Assembly: GCA_029245795.1 (NCBI GenBank)
Contig: JAQWOP010000021.1
Coordinates: 32,731-96,730, forward strand
Direction: 5' to 3'
From: Hyphomicrobiales bacterium
GTDB lineage: Bacteria; Pseudomonadota; Alphaproteobacteria; Rhizobiales; TMED25
DNA length: 64,000 bases
Notes under the pieces: generated by a model
The model's database searches: none
Seen by the model: the letters and a program-made list of their open reading frames with translations, nothing else
What the model was told of the DNA's origin: nothing
Position numbers and translations under genes: made by a program
In this document: positions 11,558 through 61,941 of the stretch, piece after piece
Numbering within the stretch: the first letter of the stretch is position 1
Layout of the letters: each line of letters starts with the position of its first letter

Positions 11558-11603
11558 TTTAATTTCAAATTCAATTTTTATTTTTTTAGTGTTATAATAT
11601 CCT

Positions 11604-11746
11604 AGCTATACGGTTTGTGAGATAACTATTCCTGGCGCCATAGCAATTCGATAGGGAACTGACGCTGGTTTGGACCGTGGTCCATTTCATTTGGTGCCCA
11701 CCTATATATTAGGAGCCTAGGATTGTAAAATCCACGGCCGTATGGC
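11604..11746 (+). ncRNA. ssrS: 6S RNA
   Basis: Located between zapA and fau; 5' CTATACGG pairs with 3' CCGTATGG; internal GGTTTGGACCGTGG...GGTGCCCACC typical of alphaproteobacterial 6S RNA; TATAAT just upstream. Ends are approximate. Confidence 0.85.
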
Positions 11747-11754
11747 ATTTATTT

Positions 11755-25774: not shown

Positions 25775-25889
25775 TTAAGATGAATAATTATTTATTTATA
25801 TATATATTGATTATGCTCAAAAAGAGATCAAGTCAAATTAATTAATTTTATAATTGATATATTGTTTTTTTTGAAGTATTAAAGAAATG

Positions 25890-25934
25890 GGACAGCTCTC
25901 CCCAACGAGAGTCAACTATCTGGAAGGGTAGATA
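25890..25934 (+). promoter_or_regulatory. serC-motif RNA leader (predicted cis-regulatory RNA of alphaproteobacterial serC-serA operons)
   Basis: GACAGCTCTCCCCAACGAGAGTCAACTATCTGGAAGGGTAGATA right before serC ATG; hairpin CTCTC/GAGAG, then TATCT/AGATA with the SD (GGAAGGG) in its loop. Family assignment is by memory of the motif and its gene context. Confidence 0.7.
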
Positions 25935-27089
25935 ATGATACAGAAACCAAATAAAAAAACAAATAGGCCTTTGTTCTCATCAGGGCCATGTGCTAAGCAC
26001 CCAAATTGGTCAATAACTAATCTTGATATATCTGTGCTTGGAAGATCTCATAGGGCTAAGAAACCAAAAGAACTTATAGATCTTTCAATAAATTTAACTT
26101 CTGAAATACTTGAAATACCTAGTGATTATAAAATAGCTATTGTTCCAGCTTCTGATACGGGAGCATTTGAACTTGCTATGTGGAATGTACTCGGCCCAAT
26201 TGGTATCGATGTACTTGCATGGGAGTCATTCGGTAAGGGATGGGTTACTGACATCATTAATCAGTTAAAGTTATCAGATATTAATAAAATTGAAGCAGAT
26301 TATGGTTTGCTTCCTGACTTATCATCTGTAAATTCTGATAGAGATATAGTTTTTACTCTTAACGGAACAACATCAGGAGTTAAAGTTCCAAATCTAGAGT
26401 GGATTAGTGACCAAAGAAAAGGGCTAACACTATGTGATGCAACTTCAGGACTTTTTGCGCAAAGAGTGGATTGGAAAAAATTAGATATTACAACTTTTTC
26501 ATGGCAAAAGGTTTTGGGTGGTGAAGCACAGCATGGTATAATAATTTTATCTCCAAGAGCAATTGAAAGGCTTAATAGCTATAATCCACCATGGCCATTA
26601 CCGAAGATATTCAGAATAAAAAAGGGTGGTTTGGTTGATGATGCTATATTTGCTGGTTCGACTATTAATACGCCTTCTTTATTATGTGTTGCTGATTATG
26701 TGGATGCACTCAAATGGGCAAAAGAAGTTGGTGGTTTGACAAAATTAATAGGTATTGCAGATAATAATCTCAAAATAATAAGAGATTGGGTTGATAAAAA
26801 TGAATGGGTATCTTTTTTAGCAAAAGACCGAAATACTGTGTCTAATACTTCTGTTTGTCTCCAATTTTCTCTCGAAGATGAAGTAGCTAAGTATATTGAT
26901 ACTGTACATTTTTCAAAATCAATTCAAAAGAAGCTTGAAGAGGAAAATATTGGATATGATTTAGGTTCCTATAGAGATGCACCTCCTGGATTAAGAATAT
27001 GGGCAGGTGCAACTATTGATCCTGATGATATTAGGATTTTATTATCATGGGTTGAATGGGCATATTTGACTGTTTTGAAAGAGCAATAA
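25935..27089 (+). CDS. serC: Phosphoserine aminotransferase
   Basis: NRPLFSSGPCAKHPNWS...TTFSWQKVLGGEAQHGIIILSPRAIERL; followed by serA. Confidence 0.94.
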   Translation: MIQKPNKKTNRPLFSSGPCAKHPNWSITNLDISVLGRSHRAKKPKELIDLSINLTSEILEIPSDYKIAIVPASDTGAFELAMWNVLGPIGIDVLAWESFGKGWVTDIINQLKLSDINKIEADYGLLPDLSSVNSDRDIVFTLNGTTSGVKVPNLEWISDQRKGLTLCDATSGLFAQRVDWKKLDITTFSWQKVLGGEAQHGIIILSPRAIERLNSYNPPWPLPKIFRIKKGGLVDDAIFAGSTINTPSLLCVADYVDALKWAKEVGGLTKLIGIADNNLKIIRDWVDKNEWVSFLAKDRNTVSNTSVCLQFSLEDEVAKYIDTVHFSKSIQKKLEEENIGYDLGSYRDAPPGLRIWAGATIDPDDIRILLSWVEWAYLTVLKEQ

Positions 27090-59174: not shown

Positions 59175-59192
59175 TATTATCGGAGGAAAGAA

Positions 59193-60473
59193 ATCCAGTT
59201 AATAGAAAAATTCTTCAAAAAAAAAATTGATATTAGTGATCTTATTGATGAGGATATTAGAGAGCTAAAACTTTTCTTTGACACTATTGGCTATAATTTA
59301 TGGATAGTTGGAGGAGCCGTCAGAGATTGTATTTTAAATCTAGAAATTCAAGATATTGATTTTGCAACAGACGCGAATCCCAACGATATTCTAAAATATT
59401 GTAATAATTCTAATTTTAAGATAATAAAGATTGCTAAAAAATATGGTTGTCTTGTTTTTATAAAAAATAGAAAACGATTTGAAGTAACCAGTCTTCGTCA
59501 GGATATAAAAAATTATGGAAGAGGCGTTGATGTTAAATTTACTCAAAAAATAGATGAAGATTCTAAAAGAAGAGATTTTACAATAAATTCCTTATATCTC
59601 TCTTTCGGAGGTGATTTATATGATCCATTAAATGCCTATGAAGACCTTATAGACAGGAGGATTATATTTATAGGTAAGGCGAAAGATAGGATTAAAGAAG
59701 ATAATTTAAGAATCCTACGTTATCTAAGATTTGCAGCAAAATTTGGAACAGAAGGTATCAAACTTGATGAATTACAAGTTTGTATTGATCACAAGAATTT
59801 ATTGCTTAGATTGTCAAAAGAAAGAGTAAGAGATGAAATTCTAAATTTCATCTCATGTTTGAAATCATCAAAGGTAATCAAAGTTCTATCAGTACCAACA
59901 TTCTTTGATGTTATCGGACTTAAAGTAAATGATTTCGTACATATCAATAATCTCAACAAGATAAAAGATAATATAGATTTTGATATTTCAATAATCTTTG
60001 AATTTGCATTGGCTCTTGATAAGAATGAAGAAATTATAAGTCATCTTACAATGATGAGGGACCTAAAATTTAACAAAGAGAACATAAAATTTATAACAGA
60101 AGTACTCTCTTTTAAAGTTTGTAATAAAATAGAAATTGAACGAAGTATCAATCTTACTATCTATAAATATGGCATTGAGATTACTAAGTATATGGTTATA
60201 AATAGCTGGATATGGGAAAATAATTCATATGAATTAAATGATTGGAAAAATTTATTTAAATCAATTGATGATAGAAATAAATTAGTTTTTCCAATTAAAC
60301 CAAATGATTTAATTAATATTGGTGTACCTCAGGGACCTAAAATTGGAAGTTTATTAAATTATCTAGAAGAAGTTTGGATTGGAAATAATTGTGATTCTAG
60401 TAAAGAAGAGCTAATTCAATTAATAGAACGATACCTACCAACTCACAATAGGGGGAAGGGAGGACAAGATTGA
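59193..60473 (+). CDS. cca: CCA tRNA nucleotidyltransferase / poly(A) polymerase family, probable non-canonical (AUC) start; ORF track gives only the C-terminal part (59802-60473)
   Basis: In-frame translation upstream of 59802: ...NLWIVGGAVRDCILNLEIQDIDFATDANPN...SKRRDFTINSLYLSFGGDLYDPLNAYEDLIDRRIIFIGKAKDRIKEDNLRILRYLRFAAKFGT. GGAGG at 59182-59186, ATC at 59193. Confidence 0.85.
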   Translation: MQLIEKFFKKKIDISDLIDEDIRELKLFFDTIGYNLWIVGGAVRDCILNLEIQDIDFATDANPNDILKYCNNSNFKIIKIAKKYGCLVFIKNRKRFEVTSLRQDIKNYGRGVDVKFTQKIDEDSKRRDFTINSLYLSFGGDLYDPLNAYEDLIDRRIIFIGKAKDRIKEDNLRILRYLRFAAKFGTEGIKLDELQVCIDHKNLLLRLSKERVRDEILNFISCLKSSKVIKVLSVPTFFDVIGLKVNDFVHINNLNKIKDNIDFDISIIFEFALALDKNEEIISHLTMMRDLKFNKENIKFITEVLSFKVCNKIEIERSINLTIYKYGIEITKYMVINSWIWENNSYELNDWKNLFKSIDDRNKLVFPIKPNDLINIGVPQGPKIGSLLNYLEEVWIGNNCDSSKEELIQLIERYLPTHNRGKGGQD

Positions 60474-61316: not shown

Positions 61317-61781
61317 CTAACAATTAATTTGCCTAATAGCTTCACTTAATATTATAGCGCAAGAGTTTGCTACATTAAAAGATCTAATCTCATTTTGCAT
61401 AAAGATCTTGATTCTGTTATCGCAAAGAATATGAACATTATCTGGAACACCTGAACTTTCACGTCCAAATAAAAGTATATCATCTTTCCTAAAGTTAAAA
61501 TTTAAGTATGAAACTTTAGACTTAGTTGTAGCAAGTATTATTCTTCTCGATTCATTAATAGCCCAACTATGGAATGCATCCCAAGAAGTATGTTTTTGAA
61601 GTTTCAAGTGTTGTATATAGTCCATTGCTACTCTGTTAACCCTCTTATCATCAATATGGAATCCAGCTGGTTCAATTATATGAAGTGAGACACCAAAGCA
61701 AGCAGACAATCTCATTAAAGCTCCTGTATTTTGTGGAATATCAGGTTGGTATAAAGCAATTGATAAATTATTTTTTGTAAT
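61317..61781 (-). CDS. trmL: tRNA (cytidine(34)-2'-O)-methyltransferase, probable non-canonical (AUU) start; ORF track start at 61715 truncates the protein
   Basis: In-frame upstream extension ITKNNLSIALYQPDIPQNTGAL joins MRLSACFGVSLHIIEPAGF; stop TAG lies directly before the ATT; AAGGA 7 nt upstream. Confidence 0.85.
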   Translation of the reverse strand: MTKNNLSIALYQPDIPQNTGALMRLSACFGVSLHIIEPAGFHIDDKRVNRVAMDYIQHLKLQKHTSWDAFHSWAINESRRIILATTKSKVSYLNFNFRKDDILLFGRESSGVPDNVHILCDNRIKIFMQNEIRSFNVANSCAIILSEAIRQINC

Positions 61782-61941
61782 CTATTTATCCTTTTTGTTT
61801 AAAAATCTATTAAGTACTATTATATATAAATTATAATTATTTTATTTTAAAAATAGAAAAAAAATCAATTAATAACATGCATAAAGGTATAGCATTTTTT
61901 TACAAATCAGTATAAATATATAAGAAAATTATGAGGGTAAA

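Follow-up and report, generated by a model that had tools for sequence, protein, structure and literature searches.

In the 64,000-nucleotide stretch of DNA that was analysed (the window), the minus strand carries a gene for a TrmL-like tRNA methyltransferase that appears to start at an AUU codon, and 0.8 kb away, on the opposite strand, lies a cca-like gene with a putative AUC start (Table 1). The trmL 5' end reads AAAAAGGATAAATAG up to the ATT codon, continues with ACA AAA AAT AAT TTA TCA ATT GCT TTA TAC CAA CCT GAT ATT CCA CAA AAT ACA GGA GCT TTA and first reaches an in-frame ATG at codon 23; from the preceding stop up to that codon the frame has no ATG, GTG or TTG. The codons before this ATG encode strand 1 and motif 1 (LYQPDIPQNTG) of the enzyme. 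The first-pass annotation had placed the start at this AUU, directly behind an in-frame TAG, with AAGGA 7 nt ahead of it and no canonical start codon in the extension. Its peptide and coordinates were right, as were the spacing and the lack of ATG, GTG and TTG, and the start region was found again in relatives, as described below.

The trmL product matched PF00588 (SpoU_methylase) over residues 6-145 with 119.4 bits, above the gathering cut-off of 29.7. TIGR00185 (TrmL) was the best NCBIfam match, yet its 132.4 bits fall short of the equivalog cut-off of 190.6, and the protein is therefore named TrmL-like. Its closest full-length relatives were solved TrmL/YibK chains, 7e3q, 1j85 and 7d51 among others, which aligned to residues 6 or 7 to 152 of the extended protein; in 1j85 and 7d51 the alignment from query residue 6 or 7 reaches chain residue 2. 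The activity of the TrmL class, 2'-O-methylation of tRNA wobble nucleotide 34, may be shared by this protein. The trmL 5' region showed no RNA structure beyond chance (z 0.21), the promoter search gave a single weak match, a lower count than shuffled sequence produced, and a literature search on trmL start codons found nothing.

Table 1. Position of the trmL and cca features in the window and of further genes with putative isoleucine-codon starts in the source genome
Feature	Location	Strand	Remarks
TrmL-like SPOUT tRNA 2'-O-methyltransferase	61317..61781	-	154 codons from AUU plus stop; ORF, Pfam/NCBIfam profiles, PDB alignments
Putative AUU start codon of trmL	61779..61781	-	Kept in G003, G001, G008 and G010
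In-frame TAG directly upstream of ATT	61782..61784	-	Missing in G003, whose frame closes 7 codons ahead of ATT
Shine-Dalgarno-like AAGGA, 7 nt before ATT	61789..61793	-	AGGA-N7-ATT kept in four sister species
First in-frame ATG of trmL (codon 23)	61713..61715	-	A start here would delete strand 1 and the bulk of motif 1
cca-like tRNA nucleotidyltransferase, putative AUC start at 59193-59195	59193..60473	+	GGAGG-6 nt-ATC; family profiles; ATC also in G003
GGAGG Shine-Dalgarno, 6 nt before cca ATC	59182..59186	+	Sequence read
infC	L137:18443-19033	-	GGAGG-6 nt-ATA
PduO-type cob(I)yrinic acid a,c-diamide adenosyltransferase	G000:C2:152784; L155:12784-13371	+	AAGGA-7 nt-ATA
ybaK-like aminoacyl-tRNA deacylase	G000:C13; L148:5321-5830	+	ATT, no clear Shine-Dalgarno

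The closest named records to the source genome (G000) are the OCS116-cluster single-cell genome AG-891-J06 and uncultured 'Rhodobiaceae' MAGs. The trmL start region was compared with sister species of the same genus represented by separate assemblies (G001, G003, G008, and G010). In G003, with 83% protein identity, the 5' end reads AAGGACAATAAT before ATT AAA AAA AAT AAT TTA TCA ATT, with AGGA, the 7-nt spacer and ATT as in G000, and the open frame contains no ATG, GTG or TTG before codon 29. In G001, G008, and G010, with about 67% identity, it reads CAGGACAGAGAA before ATT CA(G/T) AAA AAT AAA TTA TCT GTG, with AGGA, the 7-nt spacer and ATT kept, and the sole canonical candidate is a GTG inside strand 1. 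This GTG stands at codon 8 and is also present there in G005 and G011. Elsewhere, the ATT position is preceded at a distance of four codons by ATG in G004, G007, and G011 and in the sister genus (G012 and G013) and by TTG in G009, and at two codons by GTG in G002. In G005, an apparent one-base difference within an A-run shifts ATT out of the reading frame. The comparison of orthologous upstream regions thus upheld the ATT and its spacing in four sister species, with the AUU common to 5 of the 11 genus species read, but not for the genus as a whole: the predicted trmL start has shifted there among ATG, TTG, GTG, and AUU, and AUU is not universal. The TrmL tree, with 80 columns only, was too poorly resolved for counting how often the AUU state arose.

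Over codons 2-22, five synonymous and two nonsynonymous changes separate G003 from G000 (1, 1, and 5 at codon positions 1, 2, and 3), and the differences between G000 and G001 number 5, 1, and 14 at the three positions. This third-position bias is that of protein-coding evolution up to the ATT. The ATG codon of the window at 61715, by comparison, is ATT or ATA in G001, G002, G004, G005, G008, G010, and G011, and its Met is not conserved.

The cca-like gene had likewise been read as a rare-start gene by the first-pass annotation, and this was borne out, with ATC also present in G003; seven other genus members compared have ATG. One ORF, which we take by eye to be hemF-like, lies between the near ends of cca and trmL. 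The idea that the two genes reflect shared regulation of tRNA maturation found no support, because they lie on opposite strands, which rules out one regulatory unit, because AUC in cca occurs in two species only, and because pduO, described below, is unrelated to tRNA.

Further genes without a usable canonical start were sought in the window and 20 other stretches of the genome (411,351 bases, about 30% of the genome, with 418 ORFs of 80 codons or more that do not overlap) and were recognised by family profiles. Besides trmL, these were cca, infC, pduO, and a ybaK-like gene, each beginning with an isoleucine codon (AUU, AUC or AUA, here AUH). In almost every member of the order that was read, infC starts at AUH, an already known phenomenon that served as positive control. 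The pduO start is AUH in 11 of 11 family genomes where the gene was found, namely, AUA in G000, AUU in G002 and AUC in nine others (G003, G005, G001, G008, G010, G007, G011, G012, and G013), while the homologous codon is ATG or GTG in all 10 outgroups read (L207-L211 and L246-L250). When the class was searched by pattern, over an uncounted number of pduO carriers, AUH at this start turned up outside the family only in G150, a match that was set aside for its in-frame ATG four codons upstream. The family-wide pduO pattern, varying among AUA, AUC, and AUU but never AUG, suggests selection for weak initiation. The ybaK start codon reads ATT in two genomes (G000 and G002) and ATC in four (G001, G008, G009, and G006); GAGG precedes it in each of them but G000.

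Several ORFs of less clear status were seen alongside. In hflX (L152:8251-9576, plus strand), the first 52 codons contain no ATG, GTG or TTG, and relatives have TTG or ATG. An alpha/beta hydrolase ORF (L138:2473-3285, plus strand) lacks a canonical start ahead of codon 68, and its upstream part may be frameshifted. A cytochrome b561-like ORF of G003 (L118:14506-15039, minus strand) has none before codon 45, and the window orthologue has TTG. An NAD-epimerase-like ORF of the sister genus (L266:16530-17504, plus strand) has none before codon 33, and its fold seems to begin earlier.

The AUH genes stood out by their Shine-Dalgarno sites. A site of at least 5 nt precedes 4 of the 5, whereas such sites are uncommon in this genome: of 335 ordinary genes, 56 (17%) have one of 5 nt before a canonical codon within the first 25 codons (binomial P = 0.003; 3 of 4 and P = 0.016 without infC), in a small sample in which trmL had been picked by a reader who had spotted its Shine-Dalgarno sequence. 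Across all sample ORFs, AUH codons were not enriched behind strong Shine-Dalgarno sites (ATT, 5 seen and 5.2 expected; ATA, 2 and 4.9; ATC, 1 and 1.3). ORFs without a canonical start in the first 30 codons numbered 9 of 361 here, 6 of 369 in G012, 1 of 185 in G157, and 5 of 213 in G090, with no separation from AT-rich controls; this crude count includes spurious ORFs, and the case for AUH starts rests on homology instead. Most genes have ATG, GTG or TTG close to the ORF 5' end. On the result for codons behind Shine-Dalgarno sites, a wholesale relaxation of start selection was rejected, and the AUH starts are exceptions. Of the proposal that start selection is relaxed in this lineage, the part that held is the occurrence of AUH in pduO and ybaK throughout the sampled genus; a genome-wide enrichment of rare starts, looked for in the 411-kb sample, did not emerge.

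Inspection of IF3, also proposed at the outset, did reveal a distinctive residue. The position corresponding to E. coli Arg129, in provisional numbering on the E. coli sequence, is Met in 12 of 12 genus genomes (motif ISLMFRGREM; L137, L190-L199, and L304-L308). The sister genus has Arg there, and the outgroups that aligned correctly have Arg or Lys, the mis-extracted rows G031 and G039 being left out. The case for the Arg129Met change as a cause of AUH starts was weakened: in the sister genus Arg129 occurs together with an AUC pduO, and Met129 is thus not required. A literature search on IF3 residue 129 found nothing.

Isoleucine-codon starts are a known but seldom catalogued way to hold protein output low. 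The ATT or ATC start of infC and the GTC start of Streptomyces sigR are repressed by IF3 (PMC5472188), and E. coli pcnB starts at AUU according to Binns and Masters 2002 as cited in PMC13009471. In S. aureus, infC (AUA), cvfC1 (AUU), and ccpN (AUA) have extended Shine-Dalgarno sites, and in poor medium the output from AUU and AUA starts was about 10% of that from AUG (PMC13009471). The infC gene of E. coli, Streptomyces, and S. aureus resembles trmL in its isoleucine-codon start behind a Shine-Dalgarno sequence with no canonical alternative, and the source genome itself has an AUA infC; trmL, however, is not the IF3 gene, so that any response of trmL to the IF3 level would be incidental and not feedback. 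The pcnB gene is a housekeeping RNA-processing gene limited by AUU and a homologue of cca, which has AUC here, but it is another gene in another lineage and its effect was measured in E. coli and is conjectural here. The conserved AUH starts of cvfC1 and ccpN are directed, like presumably that of trmL, by a strong Shine-Dalgarno sequence, although these two starts were mapped by ribosome profiling and their Shine-Dalgarno sites are longer than AAGGA. Finally, sigR and trmL are both genes distinct from infC with a non-canonical start, but the sigR codon is GTC, not AUH, and the regulation proven for sigR is presumptive for trmL.

Taken together, we put at about 0.83 the probability that trmL of this marine alphaproteobacterium is translated from the AUU at 61781 by Shine-Dalgarno placement, with initiation opposed by IF3 and output low. 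The sequence anatomy, the coding-type conservation, the AUU and its spacing conserved in five species, the lack of a canonical start at or before the conserved N terminus in G000 and G003, and the occurrence of further AUH genes in the lineage were observed directly; initiation at the AUU, insertion of fMet, low yield, and sensitivity to IF3 are predicted. In the proposed mechanism, AAGGA would bring the 30S subunit onto the AUU, with which initiator fMet-tRNA would pair imperfectly. Since IF3 normally discards such imperfect complexes, trmL output would be low, and it would rise when IF3 is scarce relative to ribosomes, like that of infC in E. coli. The gene would thereby be an addition to the known AUH-started genes of the infC and pcnB type.

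Other readings of the start are improbable. An assembly or sequencing error that replaced a true ATG, GTG or TTG, or an indel hiding the proper start, is conceivable in a source assembly of 24 contigs with 95.5% completeness, and the one-base difference of G005 lies at this very site; the TAG-ATT region had been named as the place where such an error would overturn the reading. The same ATT and AGGA-N7 recur in four separate sister assemblies, which makes error unlikely and largely refutes it, and we give it a very small probability. Initiation at the second ATT (61760-61758, codon 8) or at a TTA is hardly more probable: the GTG at codon 8 in five genus members would permit a start there in some species, but no Shine-Dalgarno sequence precedes this codon and the upstream K-N-[NK]-[LI]-S is conserved, being internal to the protein in ATG-start species. 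Least probable among these is a shortened protein from ATG 61715. It is the first canonical codon and has AGGAG 5 nt before it, but the protein would be without strand 1 and the greater part of motif 1, found in all TrmL structures, the preceding 22 codons evolve as coding sequence, and seven genus members have ATT or ATA in its place.

The main rival to a regulatory role accepts the AUU as real and regards it as a neutral relic of AT mutation bias, a serious possibility that we nevertheless do not favour. It fits the 32% GC of the genome, the movement of trmL starts among ATG, TTG, GTG, and AUU within the genus, and the few ORFs without early canonical starts in two unrelated AT-rich genomes. 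Against it are the unusually strong Shine-Dalgarno sequences at AUH genes and the third base of the pduO start, which is A, C or U and never G in eleven genomes. Moreover, AUG-to-AUU switches are very rare elsewhere, at 1 in 61,358 ancestral AUG starts (PMC5622118), a count to be read with the fact that annotation seldom permits AUU. Set beside this, the best reading is that the lineage has a handful of conserved, weak, probably IF3-sensitive starts. A broader proposal is speculative and in our view doubtful: that the family holds an unusually large, partly conserved isoleucine-start set (about 1% of genes, with trmL, cca, infC, pduO, ybaK, and possibly hflX) that is sensitive to IF3 and would respond to the ratio of IF3 to ribosomes, with Met129, specific to the genus, perhaps tuning it.

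Gene callers accept only ATG, GTG, and TTG, so that AUH genes are truncated or mis-started in databases; canonical-start calling here would give trmL without its first strand and cca without about half its length. The family-wide AUH pduO offers a natural comparative test of how frequent IF3-sensitive genes are outside infC. Apart from the start codons, two RNAs scored above the Rfam gathering score on the plus strand of the window, namely, a serC leader RNA (25885-25936) and a 6S RNA (11600-11752).
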